The translations under genes and the position numbers were made by a program. From Isoetes taiwanensis (lineage: Eukaryota; Streptophyta; Lycopodiopsida; Isoetales; Isoetaceae), in assembly GCA_021234155.1 (NCBI GenBank), contig JAJEKV010000065.1, positions 5,784,807-5,848,806 of the forward strand: a stretch of DNA of 64,000 nt, read 5' to 3'. Every line of letters begins with the position of its first letter. The first letter of the stretch is position 1. Below, piece by piece: positions 4,611 through 50,243 of this stretch. The notes under the pieces are model-generated. The model was not told where the DNA came from. It was given only the letters and a program-made list of their open reading frames with translations, and did not search any database.

Positions 4611-5470
4611 AGCTCAAAAGCATTATTTTTGCAATGCAAAAGGCATTTTTGGGAGTTCGTTGAAAGTAGCATCCTTGCACTATAGTCGAATAATATAAGA
4701 CAGGAGAGACCATGCCGGAATGACAGAACTTAACAAATACGGTGTAAGCAATTGTCAAACTTTCAAAGATACAATCCCATTGTTCGTACTATACAAAACC
4801 TAAAAAAAGATAATTTATGTAGCCTATGAATATTAAAATTATAATAGACTTATATAGTTGCCACTGTTGTTTTTAGGGCCTTTTTTTTATCGTATGGGGT
4901 GCATCGATTTTAGTAGAGATATGTACGGAAATCTATATTTCATGGACGCTGGAGCCCAAGTTTTAGGCAGTCGTTTTTTAGCACTTTTGCACAAATGCCC
5001 ATCCAAGGCTTCGAGCATTCTGAGGCTATCCACGTTGCAATCACTAGAATTTTTGTGCACGTGGAGAGCCTTAAAATCATTGGATTTGATCTACATCCAC
5101 GAAAATTCATGAAACTTCTAGCATGTTGTTGAGAATTTATGCCCACTTTTCCTAGAATCATAATTGAATCAATTTGATTTTCTAGAGAACACATCTGCCA
5201 ACTTTTCCTAAAATTGCCGCCCCCCGACTCGTGGAGGTTCCCTAGAGAACACAAATCGAATCGGATAGTTCTTGCAGGAGGTAAATCTGTGTATTTCAAA
5301 AGTTATTAAAAAGTTTGACATGCGTGTTCTAGAGTCTGTGCATTATGTGTGCTGCCATCCGTTAAGGTTAGTTTTTAATCTATGCATTAAAGAATATGTG
5401 TACTATAGATTGTGGATGGATGAGCAGCGATGTCTAGACTTAGGTTGACACTCGAGTTGGTGCATCCATG
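4611..5470. repeat. Direct duplication, copy B
   Basis: Second copy of the block at 919-1771. It includes the distal part of RECA exon 1 in decayed form, without the splice donor, so it does not provide a second gene. Its right edge meets the first copy of the hairpin repeat at 5471. Confidence 0.85.
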
Positions 5471-5516
5471 CAGTTTCAAAATTTTTGAAAAGGGTCCTGG
5501 CGCACTCTGTGAGGGA
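5471..5516. repeat. Hairpin repeat H1 (right half)
   Basis: Half copy of a hairpin repeat: TTTCAAAATTTTTGAAAA followed by GGTCCTGGCGCACTCTGTGAGGG. The left arm is missing because the copy begins at the edge of the duplicated block. Confidence 0.75.
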
Positions 5517-5650
5517 TGGGCTCCTGTTTAGGTCCTAGATGACTCGAAAAATATGGTATAAGGGCAGAATCCTACTTATCTCGAGGAGTTAAGTCGGGCT
5601 ATGCCCTTAGTTTCTGGTTTTGGACAAGTCTAGGTATAGATCAGTGGCCA

Positions 5651-5721
5651 GACACTCACACAATGCGCGAGAGGCACTTTCAAAATTTTTGAAAAAGAGC
5701 CTTGGCGCACTCTGTGAGTGG
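5651..5721. repeat. Hairpin repeat H2
   Basis: Full copy: the left arm CACTCACACAATGCGCGAG pairs with the right arm GGCGCACTCTGTGAGTG around the self-complementary centre TTTCAAAATTTTTGAAA. Same orientation as H3 and H4. Confidence 0.85.
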
Positions 5722-5841: not shown

Positions 5842-6982
5842 TTACAAGGATTTATAAGTACATATTAAACAATCTTCTTTCTTGATAAAGCTGGCCAGCT
5901 TCATATCCCTGGGCATGCAGATGACTCTTTGTGCATGGAGAGCACATACTAAGGAGTCTTCAAAATGCTGCACTAGCTTCTGTTTGGCTGCCTCCTGCAA
6001 TGCAAGCAACATGTCATCTGTACTTGCTTCTCTTTGTCGAACTCTTGCAAGATCTCACGGGTCAGTCTTGCAAACGTGGCTCTTGTTATAAGAAGTCCAT
6101 AGCTCCTCTGGAAATGCCGAATCTCTCGAGCAGCTTTAGCGAAGTATGAGTCTGACTTTTGCTTCATGGGCTTCTTTGGTGGTACGGGTCTCTCTGGGGG
6201 CGGCTTCAAAGTGTTCTCTCTTGTTGGCCTTCCTCCTTCCACGTACGTCACCTTATTTGCTTCGTAGTACTTGGAGTACGCCTCGTACATCTTCATGTAC
6301 TCCTTGTACTCCCTCATCTTCTTCTTGTACTCCCACTCATGCTTGAGTACATATGACTCCCGTGCTGGCTTGACCTTCTTGGGATCTGTTGTTGGCTTCG
6401 GCCATGACGGATAGGGAGGTGGTGCTGCAGCTTCTTGACTTTTGGGATTGGAAGGTCCGATCCTTCTGTTGGGCGGGGTATCCTCCAAGCATGCTCATTC
6501 GACTCTGTTTCAGATGAAGAGGAAGAGGGCCTATCGGGCTCCCGCTCAGTTATTTTAACCCCTTTGCTTGGTGTGCTCTTTGTTTTCCTCTGGGGTTTCT
6601 TCGGCAACTCTGGGTCTTTCCCTTTGGCCTCTTTCTTCTTCTGGCACTTCTCCTTCTCTGCAAGTCTCTTTCTTTTGGCTGCCTTCTTCATCTTGTCGAC
6701 TTTCCTTTGGCGACAGGCCAACTCCTCTGTTGCCGCACGATCCTCCTCATTCTCCTCCTCCTCGCCCCCGTTGTCCTGATTCTCCGGGTTCTCTTGGTGA
6801 TCAGGGTCTTATTGATCCTGATGTTGTTCGTTATCCTTCTGGGTTTCAGGGTTTGGTTTTAAATTTTCTTCATTTCCGGCTCGCTCTCGAGCCTCCCTCG
6901 CCTTCTGCTCCACTACGATGAGTTGGACGCTTGTGGATCCATCTGGCATAACCACCCGAGCAGTCTGTTTGGTGCGGGCTAT
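5842..6982 (-). pseudogene. Histone H3-like gene inside an LTR-element remnant
   Basis: The reading begins at an ATA (6980-6982) exactly where H3 has its ATG; an in-frame TGA lies just upstream. It continues ARTKQTAR (6956-6979), the exact first eight residues of mature H3, then VV in place of K9-S10. A long acidic then lysine-rich linker follows (KKAAKRKRLAEKEK, a serine run, a Tyr/Lys-rich EYKKKMREYKEYMKMYEAY). A full histone fold ends it: AREIRHFQRSYGLLITRATFARLTREI, then LALQEAAKQKLVQHFEDS and ALHAQRVICMPRDMKLA, stopping at 5842. Lesions are the lost ATG, one in-frame TAA in the linker, a frameshift near 6480-6500 and a 1-nt frameshift near 6030. At about 375 residues it is nearly three times canonical H3. 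Core helices align with H3 or CENH3; the linker matches nothing I know. Confidence 0.82.
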
Positions 6983-7086: not shown

Positions 7087-7094
7087 TATTTATA
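7087..7094 (-). promoter_or_regulatory. TATA box upstream of the H3-like gene
   Basis: TATAAATA on the minus strand, 105 bp before the ATA that replaces the start codon. The spacing fits a Pol II promoter with a leader of about 75 nt. It suggests the gene had its own promoter and did not depend only on the LTR. Confidence 0.5.
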
Positions 7095-7208: not shown

Positions 7209-7274
7209 CCCACACAGTGCGCGAGAGGCACTTTCAAAATTTTTGAAAAGGCCTTAGGCGCACTCTGTGAGGGT
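7209..7274. repeat. Hairpin repeat H3
   Basis: Full copy: CACACAGTGCGCGAGAGGCAC, the centre TTTCAAAATTTTTGAAAA, then GGCGCACTCTGTGAGGG. It lies upstream of the H3-like gene, while H1 and H2 lie downstream. Confidence 0.85.
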
Positions 7275-7377: not shown

Positions 7378-7446
7378 ACACTCACACAGTGCACGAGAGG
7401 CACTTTCAAAAATTTTGAAAAGGCCCTGGGCGCACTCTGTGAGGGT
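7378..7446. repeat. Hairpin repeat H4
   Basis: Full copy 105 bp after H3, with the same arms and centre and a few substitutions (GTGCACGAG in the left arm). Both copies are followed by GGGTTACTC. Confidence 0.85.
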
Positions 7447-7639: not shown

Positions 7640-7652
7640 GGCTCTGATACCA
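7640..7652 (-). promoter_or_regulatory. LTR-element primer-binding site (tRNA-Met)
   Basis: On the minus strand TGGTATCAGAGCC follows the LTR edge by one base. This is the usual plant initiator-tRNA-Met primer site. It fixes the element's orientation (minus) and places the H3-like gene in its internal region. Confidence 0.8.
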
Positions 7653-7653
7653 C

Positions 7654-9274
7654 TGTGACGTCCCCTACTTTGTCTACATGATGCTCCCATCATATCGAAA
7701 GGCGGAGTTCATCCCCTAGCAGCCAAGCTGACAGAGGCCGACCACCTGACACCAATCCCCCAGCAGGGAATCGATGAGGAAGAATGGACGGGTCATTTAT
7801 CCCATCCTCCTTCGGGACCGTCCTAGATGTGGAAGCGTAAATAAACATGGGCACATGACATCAAACATAAATAGCTCCACCATAAAGGATGGTCATCATA
7901 GCATACATGTGAAAACATATCAACAACATCATCAAAGGGGATATCCTACCCAAGGCTCAGACTCACGGGTATGGACTGACGGCTTGGGGCTCCAGAAGTC
8001 ATGCAGACAGAATTTATGGCAATGGATTGGGCTGGCATCTGCCCCCCCTGTGCATACTTTGTAGAATAGGTTGACAGTCTTGGAGCTGGACCGTAGCCTA
8101 TCAGGTGCATAGCCAAGGGGGCTACTACTGGGTTTCATCTCCCCAGCCCCGATGAGGCAGGAAGGGGATCACCCCCTCCAGAGGCACGCATGCCCATCAT
8201 AGGCGGCTAGAGGGCCACTGCTCGTCTACGACTTGAACCTCATTGAAGGTGACGCATCACCCAAGAGGTGTTGAGCCCATGCCTTGCCCACACACAGTGG
8301 CAAGCCATTAGGCCTAGCCCGCTAAGATCCTTGTTAGGTTTTACACACATCAGAGGGATCAATCTGTAATGGGACATGTCCTCCTCATCCACCGGTCTAG
8401 CCCCGCCACTTATAACCAGGTGGGCTCCTATGCACAGGCCGCATTAATTGGGAATTAATGAGGCTATCTAGGTACATCAACTACTAAGGCTTTTAGGGAC
8501 TCTACCCCCCTTCCCGATACATAGGAGTGCGCATAGAATAGAACATCATCATCAAAGAACTGAAATATAGAATAACTAATCTATCTACCTAAACATATAT
8601 ACTTAGGTTCCTTTGTTAGGGTTTGTGATCTCAGGGTTTATAAGGCTGATCTAACATGCTATCCCAGCTCATTGCCAGACTAAAAGTCGGCATTGCACTA
8701 CAGAATCACTGGTTACCTGGTCCCTGGCTTGCTCCCGCACCTGGCTCAAGGAAGCCGAAATGCGAAAATGGAAAAGGTTTAGGGTTTTTCCTTTTGTTCC
8801 TTTTACATGACCTTTTAGGGTTAGGGTTAAAAGCACCTATGGGGTTTTGCCATGAGGCAAGGGGGTTAAATGCATATGTTTATAAACATGTGCAACATAC
8901 GAGGTTGTCTCCTAGGGTGCAACCCTTTATGGTTCCTAAGTACATGTCATCAAGGTGACATGTACAAGTGGCATGGTAGTATAATATACGTATTTGGACC
9001 GTATATTATGCTGGAACGTCACAGGGTTAGGATTTGGCCATTTATAGGTTAGGGTTCCATGTCATTGCCACGTGGCTCCAACGGGGTGCTTCCATGTGGC
9101 AGATGCCCAATAGGGTGAGGCCATGTGGAAATGGCCCTATGCCTAAGGTTGGCTAAGTTATATGAATAACTTAGTCATGCTCCCTTTTCCACCTACTATG
9201 GTGTACAAGGCTTGTACGGTGACTTGGCCCAGGAATATACATATTTATAGTGTATATTTCCAGGGAACGTCACA
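7654..9274 (-). mobile_element. 5' LTR of an LTR retrotransposon remnant
   Basis: The unit starts TGTGACGTCCCC and ends GGGAACGTCACA, inverted TG..CA termini, about 1.6 kb. The end motif GGAACGTCACA also occurs at about 9013-9024, so the terminal 250 bp look tandemly duplicated. The primer site lies inside at 7640. No matching 3' LTR occurs in the window; the internal region ends against the duplicated block at 5470. No gag or pol is seen, so superfamily is undetermined. A short GGGTTAGGGTTA lies within it. Confidence 0.75.
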
Positions 9275-13430: not shown

Positions 13431-13722
13431 AATGGCCCCAATTTTGTACATTATTCATACTTCTCTGTAACTAGTCACTATGCATTCCAAAGTTCATTAG
13501 CTGTAACCTGCAAGAAACCTCAAAAAAAAAATCATGTGCACATCATATCATAATCATAAATTAGTCGGATCCATATGTACGTGCACAATAGATGGAAGCT
13601 TTGTTACTTTCGATGCTATCCAAAATCCAAAATAAGATCCCTATCAAGTTTGTGTTGTGCATGTCCCAGTGGCCCTAAGATGTAAGGCCATGTACATGAG
13701 AATGTGACCCAAACTGCTGCCA
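13431..13722. repeat. Tandem duplication unit U2, first part
   Basis: It continues at 25344-25573 and 31075-31230 after removal of the two nested LTR elements. The join points are the target-site duplications of the elements. Confidence 0.8.
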
Positions 13723-14471
13723 TGATGGAATTAGGAATCATGTGATATTTGTGTTGTTATCATTAAAGGCTAAGGTGAACTGGATAAACAGGGAATATAA
13801 AAGCATCAGGGGATTAGGGACCACAATTTGGCTCCCCTGTAGTTGTATCATCCAGTTAAACAGGTGTATGTTCCAGTCAAACAATAATTAGTGTGTGGAG
13901 CAAACATGGAGACATTGTTGCAAGGGTATTTTTGTGTGAAGAAAAAGAAAAATGAAAGTTCAATGGTCGAGGTGCATTATTTTGAAGCTAGGCCTGTGGG
14001 ATAATTCGTCAGATGCCGAAATTTGCAACTCTGACTGTGGGATATACATGAAGATCGGAAGGCAAGCTTATCCATCTCCATAACCGCCGGATTGGCCAGT
14101 TTGAGCATCTACAGGGCCTAAAACGGTGCAAGCTATATAAAGACGATGGATCTTCTCGAATATAAGGCCTCAGGAACTCCGGTCAACTGAGCTACAGGGA
14201 TTTGGTCAATGCCCGAGCTACAGTGATTTTTCTTCAATGGTTTAATGACTAGTTATGGTTTAATGACTAGTTAGAAATTATAGTTGTTGGAGAAACTTAT
14301 CATTTGTATTATTGAAGAGTTTTAGATTTGAAATACAAGTGAGTTGTGTGGAAATTGTTGTGCATAAACCATTGATAGACTTAAAGATATTTTGCAATTG
14401 GTAAATGCATTAAGCTTTGAAGCATAAGATTTGGAGAAAATTGAGTTAGCACATACACATTAAACTCAACA
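13723..14471 (+). repeat. Copia-1 5' LTR
   Basis: 749 bp, TG..CA termini. A TATA box (CTATATAAAG, about 14133) gives the likely promoter of the genomic RNA. It differs from the 3' LTR mainly by lacking an 8-bp and a 44-bp insertion. Confidence 0.95.
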
Positions 14472-14472
14472 T

Positions 14473-14484
14473 TGGTATCAGAGC
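14473..14484 (+). promoter_or_regulatory. Copia-1 primer-binding site
   Basis: TGGTATCAGAGC, complementary to the 3' end of initiator tRNA-Met, one base after the 5' LTR. Confidence 0.9.
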
Positions 14485-14502
14485 ATCCAGGTTCTAGTCA
14501 AT

Positions 14503-15240
14503 ATGACAACCAGATTTGGTGCTAACTTATTAAATGCAATTGAAGTATTTAAGGAAGATGGAGGCTTTCAAATTTGGAAGGAGAGTATTAGAGGCGTGCT
14601 GGAGTTTGAAAATTTGTGGTATTTGTTTGATGGTACGCCAAGAATGCCGGTACTAGCTCGGTGGTTCAAGTCCCGCGCTAGTAGTAGTAATGCTCAATCA
14701 GTGCGGGGGACTTGGTGAATGTGTGTCTACCGCAAGGGCAACTTCTCTCGAGTTCGAGCGGGAGATGAAGCTAAGATTATGGAGGCTCGAGCCATAATCA
14801 TGTGTAAGGTAGGCACCGCCTTAAAACCTGAAGCTCAAGTATGAAGCCTAAGGAAATGTGGGATTATTTGATAAAGCACTATGAACAAAAGAGTTCTTCA
14901 CAAATGGATGTGCTGGAAAAACAGTTAAGGAAAATGAAGTTGTTTGAGAAAGATAACTTGACTGATTTTTTGGAGAGATTTGATTCTATTATTGCAGATC
15001 TTGAGGGAGCTGGAAATATCTTGAATGAACAATATCAAATACTAGCTTTGGCAAGAGCAGTATCTCATAATAATCACTTGGCAACTTTACTCAGAAATGT
15101 GGCCACTTCCAAGGAGCATGCTATCAGAATGATACGTACAGAATTTGAGCAGTCTACTGTTACACAGGAGGAAGTTGATCAATCCACAGAAGTCTTGTAT
15201 ACAGGTAAGACTAAAAGAGGTGGTTTTTCAAGAGGGAAGG
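14503..15240 (+). pseudogene. Copia-1 gag, N-terminal part
   Basis: Gag packages the element RNA. It starts MTTRFGANLLNAIEVF and runs through FQIWKESIRGVLEFENLW. A GC-rich insertion breaks it near 14650. The frame resumes with EARAIIMCKVGTALKPEAQ, is shifted by one, then continues MKPKEMWDYLIKHYEQKSSSQMD to GKTKRGGFSRGK, where the LINE is inserted. The CCHC knuckles are on the far side of the LINE. Confidence 0.85.
14650..14780 (+). mobile_element. tRNA-like (SINE-like) insertion in gag
   Basis: This GC-richer stretch has no counterpart in Copia gag. It contains TAGCTCGGTGG followed by GGTTCAAGTCC (14663-14673), close to a Pol III B box, then two GTAG repeats. It may be a SINE head. Its exact limits are not clear, and the box spacing is tighter than in a tRNA. 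Confidence 0.35.
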
Positions 15241-16382
15241 TAGGAAGGAAGGAAGGAAGGAAGGTACTTTTATCGTCCACGGAGACCAATCGGTCTATGG
15301 GACCCAATACAAAAAGCAGCGGCAAGCGGATTAACCCTGGATTAAAACCCCGCCCCAAAGGGCTTTCGAGGGAAAAACCGTGGGCGACAATCACCTGGCC
15401 GACAAACCGTGGCTAATCATATAAAATGCGTAAAACATCCCAATATATACGATCATGCACCACCCCTCAGAATTGCCTAGTCACGGACAGCCGCGGGGGG
15501 GCAAAGGTGACCTCGGGTCCAATACCTCCCTGGATGTATGACCCGGGCACGCATCGCCGGCGGCGTGTTCATCAGCAAATGCAAGGGCACGTCCGGCCGC
15601 ATTTAAGAGGCGATCTGGGCCGGATCGGTGAACGGCGGGCAACTCGAAAGTGTGAGACTCATCCTCAATGGCACCCGTTTGACAAGACCAGAGCCCGGCT
15701 CGCCCCGGGCGGGGTTCTCCAATCCACCGCCCGCCTGCCTCGATGCGAAGATGGTGGGCACACAATGCGAATGGAGGCAATGAGTCTGCGGCGCTTTTTT
15801 AGGCATTTGGGAACGCGGTAGAGGTGTGGGCCCCGCTAACACGGGTTGATGTGCTCCCCGCTCTGGAAACACGGGGTCCCGAGCTTGCCAAGCGAAACAA
15901 GCATCTAGGGTACTCCTGCGTACGCCACGATCGGCCGCCGCGCCCAGGTATGCGCATGCGTGCTCCCCGCACATTCCATCCGGCGAACCATCGATCTCTC
16001 TTACCCCTCCAACAGGCCCTAAGCCGCCGGCGCGGACTCATGGCCCACGCTGTAGCCCGGTCGGGAGCCGAGCATCACCCATAGTAACCACTTTCAAAAT
16101 AGGCGATGTGTCTATCAAGGGCTGCCCGCTGAAGCGGCAAGAATCCAGTTTCTACAGCCGAATCGATAGGGACTGAAGGTTTCACCCCCTTAATTGCCCG
16201 GTGCCAAAATGCCTTCTGCACCGCTCCAAGTCATTCCGGTGTAAAGAGGCGCCGGCCCCAAACCTCGACCCCGTCTGAGGAAGGGCGGGCTGACCGGTGC
16301 GGAACAATGTGACCGATGGCCCCAATCATATAGCTACGCACGGATAAGTTGTTGTCGCATGGCATAAAAGCTTTTTTTTATG

Positions 16383-17290
16383 TCACCCATAAGCGGATAG
16401 ACGCCTCCAGCCAGAAAGCGAGGAGGGGAACTCCACCCCTAGGTACTTGTAGGTGGGCGTGGCGTCCACAGGCCGCCCCCAGATATGTGAGTGCGGGGAG
16501 GCATGGGGTGACGGAAGAGGATATGAGAACCACCGTCTTGACCAGTTGACGCCGCATGTCCAGAGCGACAAAATGTGTCTAGAGCATCCGGTGAGACCGC
16601 ATAGCTTCGGGTGTGGGGCCAAAGAAGCCAACATCGTCCGCGATAGATGAGCCGCGGATGACACGGTGCAAAGTCGTATGCCATCCCCATGCTTTCGAAG
16701 CCGGGGCTCTAACGATCAATGTAGAGGCAAAAAGTGTTGGCGAGAGGGGCAACCTACCGCCGACCCAGCAGCCCGTCCGGTGCATCTCCCGCCAAAACAA
16801 CTCTCATACAACCTCAGTATATGGCATTACGCGACAAAAATGCCCCAGTTGACGCAGCCTAGCCTACGCCTTTTCCCCGGGACCGTATCAAAAGCCTTTT
16901 ATGAAGTCCACAAAGCAGCAATACAAGTCCAAATAGATGATTCCGCTTGTCTTCAATCGCCCGCAGCCGTAAAGATATGGTCAATCGTTGAGTGGCGGGT
17001 CGAAAAGCCGGCCTGTGTGAGGGCTTTCGCACATCCATTGCCTCTACCCGTCAATCAATCGCTGCTCGAATGCCACCAACAGTTTGGCAAATACCGGACC
17101 GACCATGATCGTCCTGCAATTGGTCGGACAAAGTGGGTCGCCCGCCTTTGTGAATGGGAACAACCCCGCTTGTGGTCCATTGTCTGGGAAACCCTCAATC
17201 GCAATGCTCGCTGAAATGGGGGTAGTGAGGACCGGCACAAGCGGCTCTCCGCCCACTTGAGTAACTCGCCCGCATACCATCGAGGTCACC
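16383..17290 (-). pseudogene. LINE reverse transcriptase (broken)
   Basis: RT copies the element RNA at the target nick. Pieces in order on the minus strand: FPFTKAGDPLCPTNCRTIMV (palm entry) at 17044-17289, PLSPTLF at about 16749-16729, the active-site string SIADDVGFFGPT with ADD at about 16641-16633, then PTYKYLGVEFPSSLS at 16383-16470, the usual post-RT signature. At least three frame changes separate the pieces. Canonical YADD is here IADD. Confidence 0.8.
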
Positions 17291-18177
17291 GCCTTCCCAT
17301 TAGCTAGCCGCTGTGCCCTCCCTCAACATCCTCGGCCACGAAACCAATGGGGCCATCCCTGGGGGTATGGGCGTATCGCTGCCCCTCGGGCGGGTCATAG
17401 AGCCGTCGCAAGTACCGCTCCCACCGCCTCGGGTGTGATGTCCCCCAGAGGGTCGGGCTTGTCTTCTCCACTTCGCGCCAAAAGGTTCGAGATGAGTGTC
17501 CGCAGGGCCTAACATCTCCCCTCGAGATGCTTGGTAAGGTGCAGCGTAACTGTGTCCTTCCGATGGGCGCCAGACTGTGGTGGCTCGCAAGCGGGTACAC
17601 TCGATCCGTAATGTGACGAGCCGCCGCTATGCTTTTTACACCCGCATCAAACCATCGGTTACGTGGAATGTTGCCTACCCTGACCTGCTACGCGGGGCCC
17701 GCCAAAGCACTCGCCCGGCCGCATCCCGTAATAGCCGGTCACCGGGTCCGGCTCTGCCGCTCTAGTGTGGAGGTCCGCACTACCGAGGGCGCCCATGAGC
17801 ATTCCGGCGTAGAGTCCTCTCGCCTTTGCTCATAATCGAAGTCTCAACCGGAGGACGGCGAAAGGGCGGGCATAGTGGGGGTTGGGGCGCCGCCAAACCA
17901 GGTCCAAATAAAGTGGGAGGTGATCCGAGTCGACCTCCTCATCCCGAATCGCCCTGCGCCACCCTAAAACGACCGATGAGATGCATATCTTGGCGCAACT
18001 ACAAGCACATAGTCCACCACACTAGACCCTCCCCCGATTGTCCTGCCTCGTGTGCACTTGGCGAGAATCGAGCCACCGCGGAAAGGCCATTGCAAATTAT
18101 CAAGTCAAAAATGCCACATAGCAGAGCAATCGTCACAAAGCGAAAGACACAGGCGCCATCCGACCCGCGTGGCCGGG

Positions 18178-18722
18178 CTACTTCAAGGGCGAGCTGCAGG
18201 ACATCGCCGCCGAGGGGTCAAGTCGCATGGGCTGCTCTACCCCGTCCGCGGCATTGAAATCTCCAAGAAGGGACGACCTCGCCCAATCGCTGATGCTGCC
18301 AGATGTCATCATATAGATCGACATACGGGTCCATCCTATCCGCATCGGGTGGTGGCTGCGATAGAAGGTGTTGTCTACGTGAGGGAAATAACAACAGCGC
18401 CGAAAAAGAGGGTTGCCACCGGTATTATGCACACGAACCCGTGGCACCCAGGTTGTGTCTGCGTGTTTCGGAGGGTAACCGAATGTGCCAAGGTTGTCCG
18501 TAGTAGCAAGCCACTCCACCATGACCCCGCCGTCTGTATGTGTATTGAAGACCGAAATGTTGGTAACCCAAGAAATCGTAGCCTCGCAGGCTCAAAGATG
18601 CTCCCATGTCTCCATGAGGAAGATGAGATCCATACCGCTGCCACGGAGTTCGACTGCCCCCTCTCTCGCCAAGGGAAGCCTCGACAATTCCATGAGACCA
18701 CCCGGCGGCACAATTCCTATTT
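18178..18722 (-). pseudogene. LINE apurinic-type endonuclease (broken)
   Basis: The endonuclease nicks the target DNA. The N-terminal SWNCRGF lies at about 18690. Later pieces include HSVTLRNTQT, FPHVDNTFYRSHHP and LLGDFNA, in two frames. The order and spacing match exonuclease/endonuclease/phosphatase domains of plant LINEs. Confidence 0.75.
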
Positions 18723-18754
18723 GTCGCCAGGGGATGGTATCGCGCAGCCCCGAG

Positions 18755-20990
18755 TCATGGGGAGGGACGGGAAGCGAGGTCGAAAGGAGAAGTAGATGGA
18801 GCGAGGCAAAGATGTGGGTCGAGAGGGCGTAGGCCACGAGGGAGCGAGGAGTAGGAGCAGGAGAAGGGGGCCGTGGGTAGTAGAAGCGTAAGCGGTGGCC
18901 ATGTGCGGTACCGTGGTTGGGGCTGCGGGGTCTCGCAGCAGCAGGCTGTCAGAAAAATGTGCATCCTGCCTCGAACGAATCCTGCGGCACCCGTTGGCGA
19001 ATGCCTCGACCCTGACAAGCTCCCTGTCTGCCTGCCTCCTTGCAGATTGGTGTGAGGTCCCGGCCCACGCATGCGGATGTCCCCTTCAACATCCGCCCCG
19101 GCACAATATGGCATCACGCACTTGTGCATCCGCAAACCGCGGAATATGACAATGCGGTCACGCCCGGCCGGTGCCCCATGCCGGCCGCCGAGAAATGTGA
19201 ATCGGCCTCGGAATGTCATCCGGATCGAATGTGTGTGTTCGATGTTGTGGGCGCAGACTCTCCCTGCTTCCGGCATGCCTCAACTACCGTGACAGGCCTC
19301 TCCGCCCTACACCCTCGAGTTCTCGCAGCTCAAGGGTCCAAGGTGGGCGGGCCGGGTCCCGGGCCGGGGTGGTGGGTGGTGGCCGGGATGGCGGGAGTGA
19401 CCGGAGTGTGGCCGGGATGGCGCGGGAGTGGCCGGAGAGCCGGGCAGCAGCGGCGGGGGCGCGGGCGGGCGGAGAGGCTGTGGCGGGCGATAGCGGTCCG
19501 AGCCGCCGCTCTCGCCCCGGGTGGAAGCCCGGGAGCACAGCCTCTTGCAGCCCCGGCCGCCGCTTGGCCATCTCCCCGGCCGCGACCGCCGGCAACGACT
19601 ATGAACCCTGGGTAGGGGAGACCCCGGCTCGCTCGGATGGATGGTTGCCCGCAACCCCGGAGCCCGTGCTCGGGAGCGAAGCGAGCTGCTCGAGCCCCAA
19701 AGACACGGCGCCGAGGGGCCGGCTTGCTGCTCCATCTTTACTCAAGATCCCGGTCAGTTCACGGCCGCCTCAAGAGAGCGTTCTCAGGTTCCCCGGCCAT
19801 GGTGGTGGCTGCCTCTACCTCGGTCCGCCGGGGCAGCCGTGACCATCGCTCTCCTGCATTCTTGCTCCCTCTCTGTGTCATGGTGTCCGTCGGTGATGAA
19901 CACGAGTCTGGGGCGGCCCGCATGTCGCGATCCTCTGCTCGGCTGCTTTGCGCCGGGTGTGCAAGGCCAAGGCCATCTTCCACATGCGGCGTGCGGGTCT
20001 CCAAGCACACGTGATACGGTTCTTCTCGACCCGATTTGCCTTTTGAGCACATGGGATCGCCGAGGACTCCATCTCCACCGCCATGCCAGCCAAAGGCAAG
20101 ACGCCCTCAATCACGAGCACCTTTGTTAGCCTCCATTCCCCGCTTTGGCGTGGCTCCAATTCTCTGCCGGTGGCGGGAGTTCCTATGTGGTGCGAGCAAT
20201 TAATCCCTTCCGCCGGGCCGGCCTCGTTGAGGGCCTTTAGCCTTAGCCCCAGCCTCCTTCTTCATGGAGGATGACTCTCCCCGCCCATGATGGCTGATCG
20301 GGACCCGTTTGTCTGTGGGCCCTCGCCTTTGTTTTTCCTGGCCCGCCCATCTTCTTAAGCCATGACTCCCAAAGTTTGAGGGGTCTCATTCAAAAGGGTG
20401 CCTAGAATTGAATTTGGGGACTCAAGAACGCCGGCAGAGCACCTTTTGGGCTAGTCAACGGAAACCCTAAGTGGTGGGCAGGGGTGTCTGTGTGTTTCTA
20501 GCGAGCCCAAAGAACACCTCGTGGGGGTGCCCACCACCTTTGACTTTGACTTTGACCTACTGCCAACGCTTCTCATAGGTCTTTCCAAAGCTTTGTATAA
20601 CACGACACCATTTAACATGCCATCGCTAATCTATCGCCAACGCTTCTCATAGATTAGAATAGAACATCACTCACAATTGTTGCATGCCAACTCCAAAGCA
20701 GTGTGTGGGGGGTTTTGAGGGCTCCAAAGTCCGAGGGGTCTCTGGCTGCCTCAAGGGTGCTTAGAATCCGGTTTAGGGGCTGGAAAAATGGTGGAGCGCC
20801 TTTGGGGGGTTTGGGGGTTTTGGGTCTAGAGAGAGATTGTAAACCCTAGAGAGAGAAAGCCAGAAAGGGGCAAATCAAGGGGGTCTATGCAAGGGGAGTG
20901 AGGGCGCTAGAGAGAGGGAGTTGGGCGCTGTGAGGGCGCTAGAGAGAGGGAGAGGGAGGGGGGCGCTAGAGGGAGGGAGAGGGAGAGGGA
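18755..20990 (-). other. LINE ORF1 region and 5' leader
   Basis: Very GC-rich, with overlapping frames on both strands. The minus frame at 18755-19276 includes RGRFTFLGGRHG and MHKCVMPYCAGADVEGD and is the best ORF1 candidate. Proline/arginine-rich frames at 19284-19735 and a leader with CTAGAGAGAG repeats (20820-20990) precede it. No known ORF1 domain is recognised. Confidence 0.4.
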
Positions 20991-21358
20991 GTAGGACCTT
21001 GTTATGCATGCAATCAATATGGTCACCTAAAGAGTGAATGTCCAAATAATAGTGAGAAGGAATTTAGATGCTTCAATTGTGAAGGTAAAGGTCATTTTGC
21101 TTCTGATTGCCCAAGCCCTAAAAAGGGAAGAGGTCGAGGAAGATCTTCTGGAACTTATAGAGGTGGCAGGGGCAAGGGAAAATTCAAAGAAGGTGCAAGT
21201 ATTAATGTGGTAGAAAAGCAAGATAGTAGTGAAGGTGAACTTGAGGATGACACCTTGGAGGTAAGCAAGAATTTAACTTGCAATATTTCAGAGTTTCCAA
21301 AGAAAAATAATAATAAATTTGTTGTTATAGATTCAGGAGCAGAAAAAAGTGTGGTGTG
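20991..21358 (+). pseudogene. Copia-1 gag zinc knuckles and protease start
   Basis: Directly after the LINE, two CCHC knuckles (CYACNQYGHLKSEC and CFNCEGKGHFASDC) bind RNA. A glycine/arginine-rich linker follows, then the aspartic-protease active site VIDSGAEKSVV. The frame ends at a TGA at 21357-21359; pol continues one frame over. Copia-2 has a continuous protease here, so the shift is a lesion. Confidence 0.9.
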
Positions 21359-24300
21359 ACTTGCATATGCTTAAGGATTGGGAAAAGAAGGAAGGACATG
21401 TGCAACTTGGTGATGGAGGTTTGAAGAAAATAGAAGATACTGGAGTTTTAGAGTTGTTTGACTTAAATGGCAAAATTGTAAAATTGAGAGATGTTTTATG
21501 TGTGCCCAGTCTTGTTAGAAATCTCATATCTGTATGTCAGCTGGTGGATTTGGGATATAAAGTACTGTTTGAACAGATTCAGTGTAAAGTGTTTCTTAAT
21601 GGTGAATTGAAGTTTATTGGCAAAAGAGTTGGTAATCTTTTTGGATTTAATATGGAGCATATTCATGAAATTAATCTTGTGGAATATTCAGATGAGAAAA
21701 TATGGCATAACAGATTATGTCATGTAAATGCTGCAATAATTAAAAGACTTGGGGAAAAGGGATTAATACCTGTCAAAGTACAAAAAGAAAAGTTTTTATG
21801 TGGGGGCTGCCAACTTGGGAAGCAAACAAGATTGCCATTTAAAAGGTCACACAAAAGAGCAAAGGGCATTTTGGATTTGGTACACACAGACTTATGTGGT
21901 CCTATAAATGTTACTAGTTTGAGTGGACATAAATATTTTATGAGCTTTATTGATGATTTCAGCCGAAAAACCAAGTGTTATATTTTGAAAACAAAAGATC
22001 AAGCTACTGATGCCTTGAAGTTATTTACTGCTGAAACCGAGTTAGAAACTGGAAGGAAAATAAAGTGTATAAGGTCAGACAGAGGAGGTGAATATATCTC
22101 TGATGAATTTAAAGCTTTCTGTGCAAGCAGGGGAATCAAGAGGCAATTAACATGCAGATACTCACCACAACAAAATGGAGTTGCAGAAAGGAAAAATAGG
22201 ACCTTGCTTGATGCTGTGAGATCCATGTTGAAGTATTCTGGCTTACCAAATTATTTATGGGATGAAGCTGTGAAGACAGCTGTCTACATTCAAAACTTGT
22301 TACCTTCATCAAGTATTAAAGGTGCAATTCCAGAAATGCTTTGGTCTGGTAAGTCACTTTCTTATGATAGATTAAAAGCATATGGGTGTTTATGCTTTGT
22401 ACATGTTCCTGAAGAACTGAGAAAAAAGTTGGATGATAGAGCATACATATCTTATCTGGTAGGGTGTGATTCTAACTCAAAAGCATTCAGATTATATGAC
22501 CCTGTTAGAAGAAAAATTATAGTGAGTAGAGATGTGGTCTTCAATGAAAAGGAATTTTATAGAAAAATTCCCAAGATCAATACTGAAGATCCATGTGAAA
22601 GTGAAAGAAAAGATAGTATTGAAGAAGCAAATCAGTCAATAAATGAAGAAGAAAAAACTCAAGGATTGGAGCAGGCTGATGTAAGTGACTCTGATAATGA
22701 GTCAGAAATGATTCCAAGTAGTGTTGCTGAGCCAGAAGTGGAATCAGGTGCTGAGCAAGAGATTGAACACCAAGAGGCAGAAGTTGGTAAAATTGATAGA
22801 CCAAAAAGAAAACCCAAACGAACAGAAGCTCAAATGTTGGCAGAAGAAGCCAAACATAATTTAGAATCTTATGGTAGAACTGAACTTGGAAGAAGTAAAA
22901 GGCTTAGATCTCACATAGGAGAAATTAATACTGTATTTGACATTTTAATACTTGAAACAGATAAGATTCCACAAAATTATATGGAGGCAGTTCAAGATAT
23001 AAATGGAAAGAACTGGAAATGTGCTATGGAAGAAGAAATGAGAGCATTCAAAAGAACCAACACTTATACTGTAGTGGATATTCCTTCTGATAAGAACATA
23101 GTTGGAAGCAAGTGGATCTATCGAATAAAACCAGGAATAGACAAAAATGCAAAGAAATTTAAAGCCAGACTTGTGGCACAGGGCTTTACACAGAAGAAAG
23201 GGGAAGATTTTGATGAAACATTCTCGCCATTGGTAAAGATAAATAGTTTGAGAATGTTATTAGCTATTGCTAATGCTTGTGACCTTGAAATCCATCATAT
23301 GGATGTAAGTACAGCATTTTTGAATGCTAAATTAGAGGAGGAAATTTATTTAAGACCAGCTCCTGGATTTGAAGAGGAAAAAGGAAAAATCTGGAAGTTA
23401 AATAGAGCAGTCTATGGTCTTAAACAATCCCCTAGGGAATGGTATAAATGTATGGATGGATACCTTTTAGAACAAGGTTTTGAGAAGCTCAATTATGATG
23501 GTAATATTTACAGGTTTAAAATGGGAGATGCCTGGTGCATTATTGCTTTATATGTTGATGACAGTATTATGATATCAAAGGGAACTCAAGTATTAAACCA
23601 TTGCAAAGATATCTTGAAGAAACGTTTCCAAATGAGTGATCTTGGTGAATTAAAGAGGTTTCTGGGCATAGATGTTTACAGGGACAGAAATCACAAGATA
23701 TTGACTTTGAGTCAACAAGGGCATATTCAAAACATGTTGACAAAATTTCATATGAAAGATTGCAATATAGCATATACTCCTATGGTTCCTGGTCACAGAA
23801 TCTCTGCAGATATGAGTCCAAAGACAGAAACTGAAAGTAAACAAATGGAGAAAATACCTTACAGAAGTTTGATTGGTTGTTTGTCCTATGTAGCCAATTG
23901 TACTAGGCCTGACATTGCATTTGCAATCAATATTCTCAGTAGGTACAATAACAAGGCTGGTAAAGGACACTGGAATGCAGCAAAAAGGATCCTCAAATAC
24001 TTGAAAGGTACAATGCATTTTGGTATTGTATTTAATGAAACCAACTTACAATTCCAGGCTTATTGTGATGCTGATTGGGGAGGAGATTTAGACAAACGAA
24101 AGTCAACTTCAGGATATGTTATTCTATTAGGTGGAGCCCCAGTTGCTTGGAAGTGCAAAAAGCAAAGCAGCATTGCTTTATCAAGTGCTGAAGCTGAGTA
24201 CAACTCAGCTGCTCGGTTGACAAAAGAACTAATTTGGGAAAGAAGACTTATGGCAGAATTTGGATTTGCTCAAAGAGGACCAACAATTATTTATTGTGAT

Positions 24301-24540
24301 AATACTAGTTGTATTGCCATGTCAAAAAATCCCATTCTGCACGAAAGATCAAAACACATTGAGATGGAAGTTCATTTCATCAGAGATATGGTCAGGAAAA
24401 ATCAAGTACATTTGACATATGTTAGTACAGTTGATCAAAGAGCAGATATTCTTACCAAGGCACTGCCATTATCCAGATTTCAGGAAATAAGGAAATTATT
24501 ACAATGTGATGACAGGGAATATCACATGAAGGGGGAATGA
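21349..24540 (+). CDS. Copia-1 pol: integrase, reverse transcriptase, RNase H
   Basis: An open frame of 1063 codons whose first ATG is an artefact of the frameshift. Order: pre-integrase zinc finger (H120, H125, C151, C154); integrase core with D181 (HTDLCGP), D244 (SDRGGEY) and E280 (GVAERKNR); an acidic linker (about 420-500); RT opening KFKARLVAQGF with the active site YVDD at about 735-738; RNase H with CDADWGG at about 906 and SSAEAEY. It ends with the stop that forms the first bases of the 3' LTR. All catalytic residues are present, so pol was recently functional, but it lacks an intact upstream gag-protease. Confidence 0.93.
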   Translation: MWCDLHMLKDWEKKEGHVQLGDGGLKKIEDTGVLELFDLNGKIVKLRDVLCVPSLVRNLISVCQLVDLGYKVLFEQIQCKVFLNGELKFIGKRVGNLFGFNMEHIHEINLVEYSDEKIWHNRLCHVNAAIIKRLGEKGLIPVKVQKEKFLCGGCQLGKQTRLPFKRSHKRAKGILDLVHTDLCGPINVTSLSGHKYFMSFIDDFSRKTKCYILKTKDQATDALKLFTAETELETGRKIKCIRSDRGGEYISDEFKAFCASRGIKRQLTCRYSPQQNGVAERKNRTLLDAVRSMLKYSGLPNYLWDEAVKTAVYIQNLLPSSSIKGAIPEMLWSGKSLSYDRLKAYGCLCFVHVPEELRKKLDDRAYISYLVGCDSNSKAFRLYDPVRRKIIVSRDVVFNEKEFYRKIPKINTEDPCESERKDSIEEANQSINEEEKTQGLEQADVSDSDNESEMIPSSVAEPEVESGAEQEIEHQEAEVGKIDRPKRKPKRTEAQMLAEEAKHNLESYGRTELGRSKRLRSHIGEINTVFDILILETDKIPQNYMEAVQDINGKNWKCAMEEEMRAFKRTNTYTVVDIPSDKNIVGSKWIYRIKPGIDKNAKKFKARLVAQGFTQKKGEDFDETFSPLVKINSLRMLLAIANACDLEIHHMDVSTAFLNAKLEEEIYLRPAPGFEEEKGKIWKLNRAVYGLKQSPREWYKCMDGYLLEQGFEKLNYDGNIYRFKMGDAWCIIALYVDDSIMISKGTQVLNHCKDILKKRFQMSDLGELKRFLGIDVYRDRNHKILTLSQQGHIQNMLTKFHMKDCNIAYTPMVPGHRISADMSPKTETESKQMEKIPYRSLIGCLSYVANCTRPDIAFAINILSRYNNKAGKGHWNAAKRILKYLKGTMHFGIVFNETNLQFQAYCDADWGGDLDKRKSTSGYVILLGGAPVAWKCKKQSSIALSSAEAEYNSAARLTKELIWERRLMAEFGFAQRGPTIIYCDNTSCIAMSKNPILHERSKHIEMEVHFIRDMVRKNQVHLTYVSTVDQRADILTKALPLSRFQEIRKLLQCDDREYHMKGE
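24529..24537 (+). promoter_or_regulatory. Copia-1 polypurine tract
   Basis: GAAGGGGGAA directly before the 3' LTR, the plus-strand primer site. Confidence 0.85.
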
Positions 24541-25338
24541 TGGAATTAGGAATCATGTGATATTTGTGTTGTTATCATTAAAGGCTAAGGTGAACTGGAT
24601 AAACAGGGAATATAAAAGCATCAGGGGATTAGGGACCACAATTTGGCTCCCCTGTAGTTGTATCATCCAGTTAAACAGGTGTATGTTCCAGTCAAACAAT
24701 AATTAGGGTGTGGAATTAGTAGCAAACATGGAGACATTGTTGCAAGGGTATTTTTGTGTGAAGAAAAAGAAAAATGAAAGTTCAATGGTCGAGGTGCATT
24801 ATTTTGAAGCTAGGCCTGTGGGATAATTCGTCAGATGCCGAAATTTGCAACTCTGACTGTGGGATATACATGAAGATCGGAAGGCAAGCTTATCCATCTC
24901 CATAACCGCCAGATTGGCCAGTTTCAGCATCTACAGGGCCTAAAACGGTGCAAGCTATATAAAGACGATGGATCTTCTCGAATATAAGGCCTCAGGAACT
25001 CCGGTCAACTGAGCTACAAGGATTTGGTCAATGCCCGAGCTACAGTGATTTTTCTTCAATGGTTTAATGACTAGTTATGGTTTAATGACTAGTTAGAAAT
25101 TATAGTTGTTGGAGAAACTTATCATTTGTATTATTTTGTGGCGTGACGTTAAAATCCCTTCTTCTTCTTCTTCTTCTATTGAAGAGTTTTAGATTTGAAA
25201 TACAAGTGAGTTGTGTGGAAATTGTTGTGCATAAACCATTGATAGACTTAAAGATATTTTGCAATTGGTAAATGCATTAAGCTTTGAAGCATAAGATTTG
25301 GAGAAAATTGAGTTAGCACATACATATTAAACTCAACA
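24538..25338 (+). repeat. Copia-1 3' LTR
   Basis: 801 bp. Relative to the 5' LTR it has an 8-bp insertion near 24717 and a 44-bp insertion at about 25136-25179. Confidence 0.95.
25136..25179 (+). mobile_element. 44-bp micro-insertion with LINE-tail sequence
   Basis: The insert reads GTGGCGTGACGTTAAAATCCC then (TTC)n. It resembles the last 20 or so bases of the LINE 3' end (GTGGACGATAAAAGTCCC) with a new TTC tail, so it looks like an extremely 5'-truncated LINE insertion. ATT flanks both sides. Absent from the 5' LTR. Confidence 0.6.
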
Positions 25339-25343
25339 TGCCA

Positions 25344-48768: not shown

Positions 48769-50043
48769 CTACAATTGTGTTTTGAAGTCTCCGTCCAAAT
48801 ATGCGCCGATGATCTCGTGCCTGATCTTCATTAACAGGTTGGTGCTTTCGTCAAAGTACCTTGGTGGATTAGCAAATGGATTATCTCTGAGCTCTTGGCC
48901 GCGTCTTTGGATCATTATCCCAAGTGGTCCCCATAGAACTAAGGATACTTTCTCACGGGTTGCTTGGAATGGGTTCATCATTAGATCATATGCAGCTTCA
49001 ACTCTTCTTTGGTTTACATTTTGGCCATTAGTAGGTATAGCCCATTGTGTACTGAGATAGAATTTACCTGTCTTGATCATCTCCGTGATTGTGAATGTCA
49101 AGGGTGGCTTACGACGATTGGACATTCGATAATTTGCAAAGTGACAGACTTTCAGGAGCAAGTTCTTAGGGTCTAGGCAGACTGTATCTTTTATTTCTCC
49201 TGCTCCATACATCGCATATCTTTCTTTTCCTCTCATCAGTTCTTCTGATGAGACATTATGCATGCGTACACTAAAATGGGGCTTTCCAAAATCCTTCATA
49301 CAATAACCTAACATACCTTCAAAGCAATGCAGCTTTGTGTCCTTTAGTGTCCTGCACATAATTTTGGCCCCAGCTGGCTTTGTGGTGTTCCATCTCATGG
49401 CTACTTTGAGCAATGCTGCAGCACCACGTACTCCTACTGATTTCAGTTTGGCTGTGGCTTGAAAGTGCAAGTGATCTAGATTTGACCCACGCTCTGTTGC
49501 AACTAATCCTGCATGACAATGCTCAATAAAAAACTCCAAGATGTTGTCTATTAGCTTTGGATCAACATCTGCGCCTCCAATTCCTATCGTTATGGATACA
49601 TCTCCACCAACTGGGCCTTTAGTTTTGCGTTGTAGCTTGTTCTTCCCCTGCTTCTTCGTTCTTTTTCTTCTTTTTTTCTTTTGGTTATTCTCAGAGCAAT
49701 CTGTGTCACTTGGACTAGATGTATGGATGCTAATCAAATCTGTATCATCATCTTCTATGAGGGTTTGTTTTCCTTTCCTTGTCTGCCTAACAGGACTAGG
49801 ATCTCTAATAGGGCTAGATGGTCCAGGATCTTGACGTGGCGGAGACTTGTTTACATGTAATGTATTGCAAAATACCTCAACACGTTCGTTGATTTGTGCA
49901 TCTTGAGCTTCAGCGACATCTTCTTGTGCAGGATGGCTTATCTCGTACGTGATGCCTTCTGCTTGTATAACTCCCATTCGTGATGTTGAGGTTGAGCCTC
50001 GTCTGTTTCGTGCCATTCGTCTCATTGTAATAGCTGCGACCAT
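48769..50043 (-). CDS. Replitron-type Rep: single-tyrosine HUH endonuclease
   Basis: The protein (424 residues, uninterrupted) should nick a terminal single strand, hold it through a tyrosine and rejoin it, driving copy-type transposition in the nucleus. Residues 1-145 are disordered with acidic and basic runs (KKKRRKRTKK at 122-131, likely nuclear signal). The endonuclease core begins near 148 (VSITIGI). The metal-binding HUH motif is LDHLH at 189-193, and the catalytic motif is GYCMKD with Y247 and K250. There is one candidate tyrosine and no helicase domain, so it fits replitrons and not Helitrons. Residues about 290-424 would be the adjacent domain reported for replitron Reps. The start is the first ATG; repeats of 101 bp lie just upstream. 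Confidence 0.75.
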   Translation of the reverse strand: MVAAITMRRMARNRRGSTSTSRMGVIQAEGITYEISHPAQEDVAEAQDAQINERVEVFCNTLHVNKSPPRQDPGPSSPIRDPSPVRQTRKGKQTLIEDDDTDLISIHTSSPSDTDCSENNQKKKRRKRTKKQGKNKLQRKTKGPVGGDVSITIGIGGADVDPKLIDNILEFFIEHCHAGLVATERGSNLDHLHFQATAKLKSVGVRGAAALLKVAMRWNTTKPAGAKIMCRTLKDTKLHCFEGMLGYCMKDFGKPHFSVRMHNVSSEELMRGKERYAMYGAGEIKDTVCLDPKNLLLKVCHFANYRMSNRRKPPLTFTITEMIKTGKFYLSTQWAIPTNGQNVNQRRVEAAYDLMMNPFQATREKVSLVLWGPLGIMIQRRGQELRDNPFANPPRYFDESTNLLMKIRHEIIGAYLDGDFKTQL

Positions 50044-50055
50044 TAAAAAAACAAT

Positions 50056-50243
50056 ACAAGGTTAAAAGTTTTATATAGCATTATAATAAGAAAAACACAA
50101 GCTTGTAATTGTAATTGGAAATTAACCTAAGCAATGGTTGGTCACGTTAGACAAACACAAGGTTAGAAGGAATATGTAGCATTATAGTAAGAATAACACA
50201 AGCTTGTAATTGTAATTGGATATTAATCTAAGCAATGGTTGGT
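50056..50243. repeat. 101-bp tandem direct repeats upstream of Rep
   Basis: Two units share CAAGGTTA(A/G)AAG, AGCATTATA(A/G)TAAGAA, CACAAGCTTGTAATTGTAAT and CTAAGCAATGGTTGGT. They may be the promoter or the direct repeat of the element's terminus. Confidence 0.8.

Follow-up and report, generated by a model that had tools for sequence, protein, structure and literature searches.

Some parasite genomes encode histones of their own, such as the histone doublets of Marseillevirus and the H4 of bracoviruses; these sit in large DNA viruses, not in an LTR retroelement. Transposable elements are likewise able to multiply H3: in the fungi Pseudocercospora fijiensis and Pyrenophora tritici-repentis, hAT-captured H3 occurs in 784 and 26 copies, respectively (PMC6710886). 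As described in the available part of that report, the carrier is a DNA transposon, the gene has no element-specific linker and no role in the element is claimed; one case is mostly truncated and RIP-inactivated, while the other is young, with 23 of 26 copies possibly functional. Among LTR elements, the Galadriel/Galahad and Tcn1 chromoviruses of non-seed plants combine a Ty3/Gypsy gag-pol with a chromodomain, and a Selaginella chromovirus has a tRNA-Met primer site (PMC3350952, PMC2864245). The accessible portions of these two papers describe one or two gag-pol ORFs, short supplementary ORFs or one further ORF of unknown function, and mention no histone gene. The family analysed here shares the gag-pol, the chromodomain and the tRNA-Met primer site, and differs in carrying its own H3-like gene and an extensive linker within it. 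Its carrier is thus of a known kind; for the histone accessory gene we found no precedent, and no LTR element with a histone gene appeared in the titles and abstract beginnings of the open-licence PMC text searched, a corpus outside which most subscription papers and preprints lie.

The window, that is the whole 64,000-nt stretch of DNA analysed, comes from the quillwort Isoetes taiwanensis, a lycophyte and not the fern that the first-pass annotation had assumed. It contains one decayed member of a large retrotransposon family (Table 1). Translation of the minus strand from 6982 to 5845 revealed, over three frames, the exact tip ARTKQTAR, a long charged linker and a histone H3 fold, as that annotation had described. 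Pfam Histone recognises the two halves of the fold independently, at E 1.1e-6 and, right at the cut-off, 8.7e-6, and PDB H3 chains match the first half with an E of about 2e-5. The four lesions that had been listed are real and consist of a lost start codon, one in-frame stop and two frame shifts. The claim that the gene lies in an LTR-element remnant, with a tRNA-Met primer site and an LTR at one end, also held, both parts being found next to each other upstream of the gene.

Table 1. Features of the window copy of the histone-carrying element (positions within the 64,000-nt window)
Feature	Position	Strand	Evidence
LTR (5' LTR in element orientation), 1370 bp	7654..9023	-	own-genome search with 7654-9274
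tRNA-Met primer binding site	7641..7652	-	exact TGGTATCAGAGC, adjoins LTR
63-nt hairpin repeat, 5' of ORF1	7381..7443	-	
63-nt hairpin repeat, 5' of ORF1	7209..7271	-	
TATA box, 112 nt 5' of ORF1 start position	7088..7094	-	TATAAA counts across loci
Decayed ORF1, H3-like (tip, linker, histone fold)	5845..6982	-	translation, Pfam, genome matches
ARTKQTAR, the H3 N-terminal tip, residue 9 = Val	6956..6979	-	translation
Histone H3 fold, two frames	5872..6185 (about)	-	Pfam Histone (two matches), local tblastn
64-nt hairpin repeat, 3' of ORF1	5655..5718	-	
Partial (half) hairpin; likeness of the window copy to other copies stops	5470..5520	-	L040 and L044 alignments end at 5470

The bounds of the LTR were derived from a search of the host genome with positions 7654-9274 (40 scored of 10965 candidate places). 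Most left-hand pieces of other copies begin at, or within a few bases of, query 252, which places the outer edge at 9023, and most matches extend to query 1596-1621, which places the inner edge at 7654 or near. Three complete hairpins of 63-64 nt are present in the window. Known RNA families were rejected, Rfam giving 0 hits at the gathering score. The window copy is without ORF2 and gag-pol. Another repeat (4611-5469) begins where the half hairpin of the histone element stops; it is one of two direct repeats (919-1771 and 4611-5469), 86.6% identical and 3.7 kb apart, whose unit abuts the cut end of the element at 5470, and a pentatricopeptide-repeat fragment (2112-2519) sits between them.

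To define the extent of the family, we searched the host genome (1110 pieces totalling 1,658,258,908 bases). The candidate numbers given for the searches, from 1211 to 34119, are unscored first-look counts and do not represent copy numbers. The feature DNA gave 43 matched pieces from 40 scored of 1211 candidates, namely 40 main pieces with 77-100% identity and three small ones with 71-88%, and 25 of the 40 scored places span at least query bases 6-1098 of 1141. The fold protein yielded 150 scored places of 8080 candidates, each a 73-88% match and many stop-free, and another ORF1 search yielded 98 scored of 13708. A codon pattern for ARTKQTAR, which also admits Ser codons for both Arg, occurs at 1934 genomic places against 0 for the reversed control; 1064 of the 1934, host genes included, have a Lys codon at residue 9. 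The gene is therefore far from unique, and a single stray pseudogene was rejected. A chance match was ruled out by the two independent Pfam halves together with the very many copies.

With host H3 as query (150 scored of 8915 candidates), 15 matches were 95-96% identical and were taken as host genes, the six fetched being all canonical. The remaining 135 were only 70-85% identical and hence are not host genes; the eight of these that were fetched all belong to subfamily C of the element, described below. Scored LTR matches lie 0.4-0.8 kb upstream, on the same strand, of six of the 39 other copies scored with the feature DNA (C1026, C151, C1078, C1096, C931 and C212). Scored RT matches lie 3.4-5.4 kb downstream of five of the 150 fold matches (C1045, C1090, C907, C1025 and C1056), and a sixth (C1018) has one at 0.6 kb. 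Both lists hold best-scoring places (40 of 10965 for the LTR, 130 of 34119 for RT), so that a missing partner means little.

The setting of the gene was read from ten loci of several kb (L039-L044, L047-L049 and L069/L056/L068), with L045, L046 and L073 added from three flanks. The best-preserved element (L047/L073) starts with the LTR and the primer site, followed by a hairpin, a TATA box and ORF1; further hairpins and another TATA box precede ORF2, after which come gag, protease, RT, RNase H, integrase, chromodomain and the second LTR. Pfam matches in this element include Retrotrans_gag (1.2e-17), RVT_1 (4e-41), RVP_2 (5.5e-9), rve (8.8e-10) and, in L073, Chromo (5.8e-10). The succession Retrotrans_gag, RVP_2, RVT_1, RNase H, H2C2 and rve was found both there and in L042/L045, and Chromo matches the L045 piece with an E of 2.9e-10. 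By its gag-PR-RT-RH-INT order and the chromodomain at the integrase C-terminus, the carrier is a Ty3/Gypsy chromovirus. All three ORFs of L047/L073 are open (427 aa for ORF1, 507 aa for ORF2 and 1608 aa for a gag-pol with terminal chromodomain) and its LTRs are 92.6% identical (1323 columns, 59 mismatches, 39 gaps), from which we conclude that the family moved fairly recently; the LTR pair of L048 is 87.5% identical. Other loci are partly broken: L046, downstream of L040, is without pol, L044 and L048 are without the RT part, and L042 has no 5' LTR in place. Of the 16 loci with enough flank, 10 have a primer-site-like 12-mer upstream, compared with 0.024 per locus in random sequence. Many relatives share the linker, the hairpins and the LTR, some of them with open frames; these are the features that the first-pass annotation had named as support, and its refuting condition, a lone copy or relatives without the hairpins and the LTR, is contradicted.

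The hairpins, about 63 nt long in element orientation, number 123 in 42 loci, and are most often spaced 204 nt (18 times) or 213 nt (7 times) apart. Over the 14 predicted pairs of 83 unique 63-mers, 982 of 1162 cells are Watson-Crick, 88 are G-U and 92 are other; the excess of G-U over A-C (88 versus 50) gives a hint of RNA folding. Of 43 loci, 30 have hairpins on both sides of the H3 gene, 12 on one side and 1 on neither, a count in which L006 gave no fold call and several of the stretches stop within the leader. That they flank the gene is thus correct, but they are not the ends of the element: they are repeats found close to TATA boxes, one set 5' of ORF1 and another in the interval separating ORF1 from ORF2. 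Their interpretation as element ends, or as a separate MITE, was ruled out by the 204/213-nt spacings and by the leader positions before ORF1 and ORF2.

Of 36 loci, 25 have a TATAAA motif 100-125 nt 5' of the ORF1 start, 17 of them at exactly 112, where shuffling predicts 0.6; the count omits four loci with too little flank, and the motif is missing at that place in the other 11. No such TATA box was seen for subfamily C in the sequence stretch examined. ORF1 thus apparently has its own TATA promoter. In L047, TATAAAT lies 109 nt 5' of ORF1 and a second TATAAAT 122 nt 5' of ORF2, and the regions before the two ORFs are 75% alike in a 277-column part. We infer from this likeness that the hairpin/TATA regions are matching promoter or leader modules.

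Matching promoters, with hairpins flanking ORF1 in most loci, would also fit a dual or regulatory role, in which the products of ORF1 and ORF2 act as a complex, such as a silencing suppressor or a histone chaperone pair, and the H3 fold serves as a protein-binding module outside nucleosomes. ORF2, however, has no Pfam match, and its AlphaFold model reached a mean pLDDT of 38.5 (three sequences), too poor to read, hence no known partner function can be assigned to it; we consider such a complex rather unlikely. Among 8000 scored candidates, the only relative of ORF2 at E <= 0.001 is P0146, a protein of 501 aa that is 47% identical over 99% and comes from a contig of 2007 bases with the source label lgn.

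In ORF1, a linker some 250-310 residues long separates an ARTKQTAR tip from an H3 fold, which Pfam Histone matches at E 7e-27 in L047 and 2.5e-41 in L056 and PDB H3 at E 4e-29. We know of no parallel in canonical H3 for a linker this long between tail and fold. The H3 of I. taiwanensis itself has the same tip and fold, and four element sequences agree with it at 45-77 of 90 fold residues, but it has 136 residues and no linker, and keeps K9-S10 and the rest of the tail. In the element, the full canonical tail (K9, K14, K18, K23, K27, K36) is absent and the long linker stands in its place.

Comparison of the copies distinguished three subfamilies. First, subfamily A, to which the window copy belongs, has V, M or I at tip residue 9: with four duplicate loci removed (40 tips before), V was found in 16 tips, M in 9 and I in 7, that is 32 of 35, the rest being two stops and one Ala, and 32 of the 35 have V or I at residue 10. 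Exact ARTKQTAR is present in 19 of the 35 A tips and 4 of 5 B tips, the others being within two changes, which was the limit of the search. Secondly, subfamily B (L047, L064-L067) has the tip ARTKQTARKP, with one change in L067, and is the only one to keep Lys9, in all five copies fetched. Thirdly, subfamily C (L056-L063) starts with MAITKS, MANTKS, MATTKS or MANTMS in the eight copies fetched and so is without ARTKQTAR; this N-terminus is followed by some 250 residues of another domain and then by the H3 fold, of which 77 of 90 residues are identical to host H3 in the copy compared. In one C copy (L069/L056/L068) the primer site is the same, and there is a second ORF, interrupted by a stop, that by eye shares the YLLLDDI motif with ORF2.

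Alignment of four element sequences (one B, one C, two A) with host H3 revealed that C110, H113, A114, K115, R116, T118, M120, D123, L126 and I130 are kept, which we take to be H3-H3' and H4 surface residues. Other H3 residues are changed: R63 to P and F84 to V in A and B, R129 to H or F and, in one A copy, R72 to L and R83 to K.

In a tree of the fold, A and B form one group (99/100), within which B itself is not resolved, and C forms another (99/99); a single origin for A, B and C was not rejected (p-AU 0.419). The first-pass annotation had raised a captured CENH3; the protein of such a gene might help the element to find or hold centromeric chromatin. Grouping of A+B with CENH3, represented by two sequences only, was not rejected either (p-AU 0.335). 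Subfamily B shares ALKEIRHFQK, LLIP and TLMR-D with Arabidopsis CENH3, the best 60 of 163 PDB matches of the window fold half include two chains of S. pombe Cnp1 (CENP-A; 4e-5), and there is a weak CENP-T_C match (E 0.0046, below its cut-off). A lengthened loop 1 is a feature of CENH3. In the A, B and C sequences, by contrast, this loop is of H3 length, and position 84 is V or F and not W. Furthermore, no centromeric name occurs among the 60 PDB chains listed, of 175, for the B protein, and the closeness of the C fold to host H3 also speaks against this origin. We regard a captured CENH3 with such a centromeric role as improbable. The search for a host CENH3 returned only host H3 and other H3-like sequences as top matches; just below the 15 host H3 genes stood a 156-aa H3-like frame (G000 C1110:2802352-2802648), possibly a host H3 variant or an element copy.

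Selection on ORF1 was quantified from the codons. Nei-Gojobori dN/dS of the fold is 0.051 in B (5 copies), 0.022 in C (8) and 0.064 in A (5); for the ten N-terminal columns it is 0.015, 0.082 and 0.155, respectively, and for the middle region 0.10-0.19. Tip and fold are thus under strong purifying selection. These values come from copies that share ancestry, so that pairs are not independent, with synonymous sites near saturation in A and with two of the five A sequences starting after the tip or a frame break. The reading frame also stood out in pN/pS: 0.128 for the A fold (38 ungapped copies, 12 with a stop) versus 1.2 and 2.2 in the other two frames, 0.061 for B (4 copies) versus 2.5 and 3.6, and 0.036 for C (8 copies) versus 2.8 and 9.8.

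Because dN/dS is low, ORF1 is not a passive passenger. A host H3 gene that hitch-hikes and decays, as with the hAT elements of Dothideomycete fungi, would account for the broken state of the window copy and many others, including the stops in 12 of 38 A folds, and H3 capture by transposons is on record (PMC6710886). Such decay does not predict a fold dN/dS of 0.02-0.06 across old copies, pN/pS above 1 in the other frames only, the same gene position in diverged subfamilies or open-frame copies, and we hold it to be highly improbable. Judged by these ratios, the family has needed the H3-like protein for most of the time that it has existed, and we are nearly certain of the element anatomy and of ORF1 as a maintained gene.

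As to what the maintained gene does, transposons are silenced via histone marks; in plants, H3K9me2 maintains TE silencing (PMC9033089). Our preferred reading, to which we give a probability of about 0.4, is that the element H3 shields the element from H3K9-based silencing. On this reading a chromovirus family took up an H3 gene in the distant past and has retained it in an accessory role. Given the conserved H3-H3' and H4 surfaces, its product would pair with H4 and enter chromatin or the H3 chaperone pathway; ORF1 thus probably encodes an H4-pairing H3 acting on chromatin. Shielding could then follow either from an H3 unable to receive the K9 mark, as in subfamily A, or from a differently tailed nucleosome on element DNA.

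The replacement of Lys9 in A-type tips suggests interference with H3K9 methylation, which is testable for A and not for B, since residue 9 is V, M or I in A while B keeps K9. The accessible text of a fission yeast study describes H3K9M as trapping H3K9 methyltransferase and dominantly blocking H3K9 methylation (PMC5030085), and nine of the 35 A tips have Met at this residue. H3K9M is, however, a mutation put into a normal histone, and that text makes no mention (0 occurrences) of K9I, isoleucine or valine; inhibition by the element protein would be an analogous case. A transposon-borne weapon whose V, M or I would poison or bypass H3K9 methylation in a K-to-M-like manner is in our view unlikely; if true, it would amount to a counterpart of an oncohistone that evolved naturally and is carried by a transposon. 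Against the shielding mechanism as a whole count the fact that K9 loss is not general (B keeps Lys9, and 1064 of the 1934 tip-pattern places, host genes among them, have a Lys codon there), the absence of ARTKQTAR from C, the H3 residues that differ, the linker without parallel in canonical H3 and the 11 of 36 loci without TATAAA at that place.

The same protein might instead work in the retrotransposon particle or the pre-integration complex, compacting or escorting element cDNA, while its exposed tip and linker, along with the chromodomain of the integrase, would aid entry into the nucleus or the choice of target. ORF1 does lie within the element beside ORF2 and gag and is under selection, its linker is charged, and the chromodomain is the module that binds methylated H3K9 in HP1. 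On the other hand, the TATA box that 25 of 36 loci have near -112 suggests separate transcription, and the H3-H3' interface kept in the four sequences compared goes beyond what DNA compaction needs; this role appears doubtful.

If shielding is the function, an own, selected H3 present in very many copies would be a new weapon or tool in the conflict over silencing. The element H3 lineage would also offer a natural test of the purpose of each part of H3. Annotators should be warned that, in such genomes, some of the genes modelled as H3-like may belong to transposons.

Similar architectures were sought among proteins. In a search with the ORF1 alignment, none of the best 120 of 1655 matches covers more than 39% of the query; these proteins, of 219-479 aa and from many organisms, were judged, by nothing more than their Pfam columns and identities, to be models of canonical H3 in tandem or wrongly joined. 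Six others (P0010, P0011, P0013, P0014, P0016 and P0017; 424-438 aa) have an ARTKQTAR tip, with one change in P0017, a linker of ~300 residues and an H3 fold, but their linker is unlike that of ORF1 and their fold is near canonical H3. Four of the six clusters have 2-8 members, their source label is ena, and no viral contigs were found for P0014. This set is possibly an independent case of the same architecture.

Two further features were seen elsewhere in the window. An LTR pair, 92.9% identical (13722-14472 and 24537-25339), with a primer site at 14473, delimits the stretch 13722-25339, which contains a 1069-aa open frame (21331-24540), Copia-like by eye, and a stretch of 58-63% GC at 16-20 kb. 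On the minus strand, positions 48769-50061 encode a Replitron relative, here in a lycophyte: a 430-aa ORF whose HUH endonuclease domain is recognised by Pfam Replitron_HUH (E 7.6e-22).
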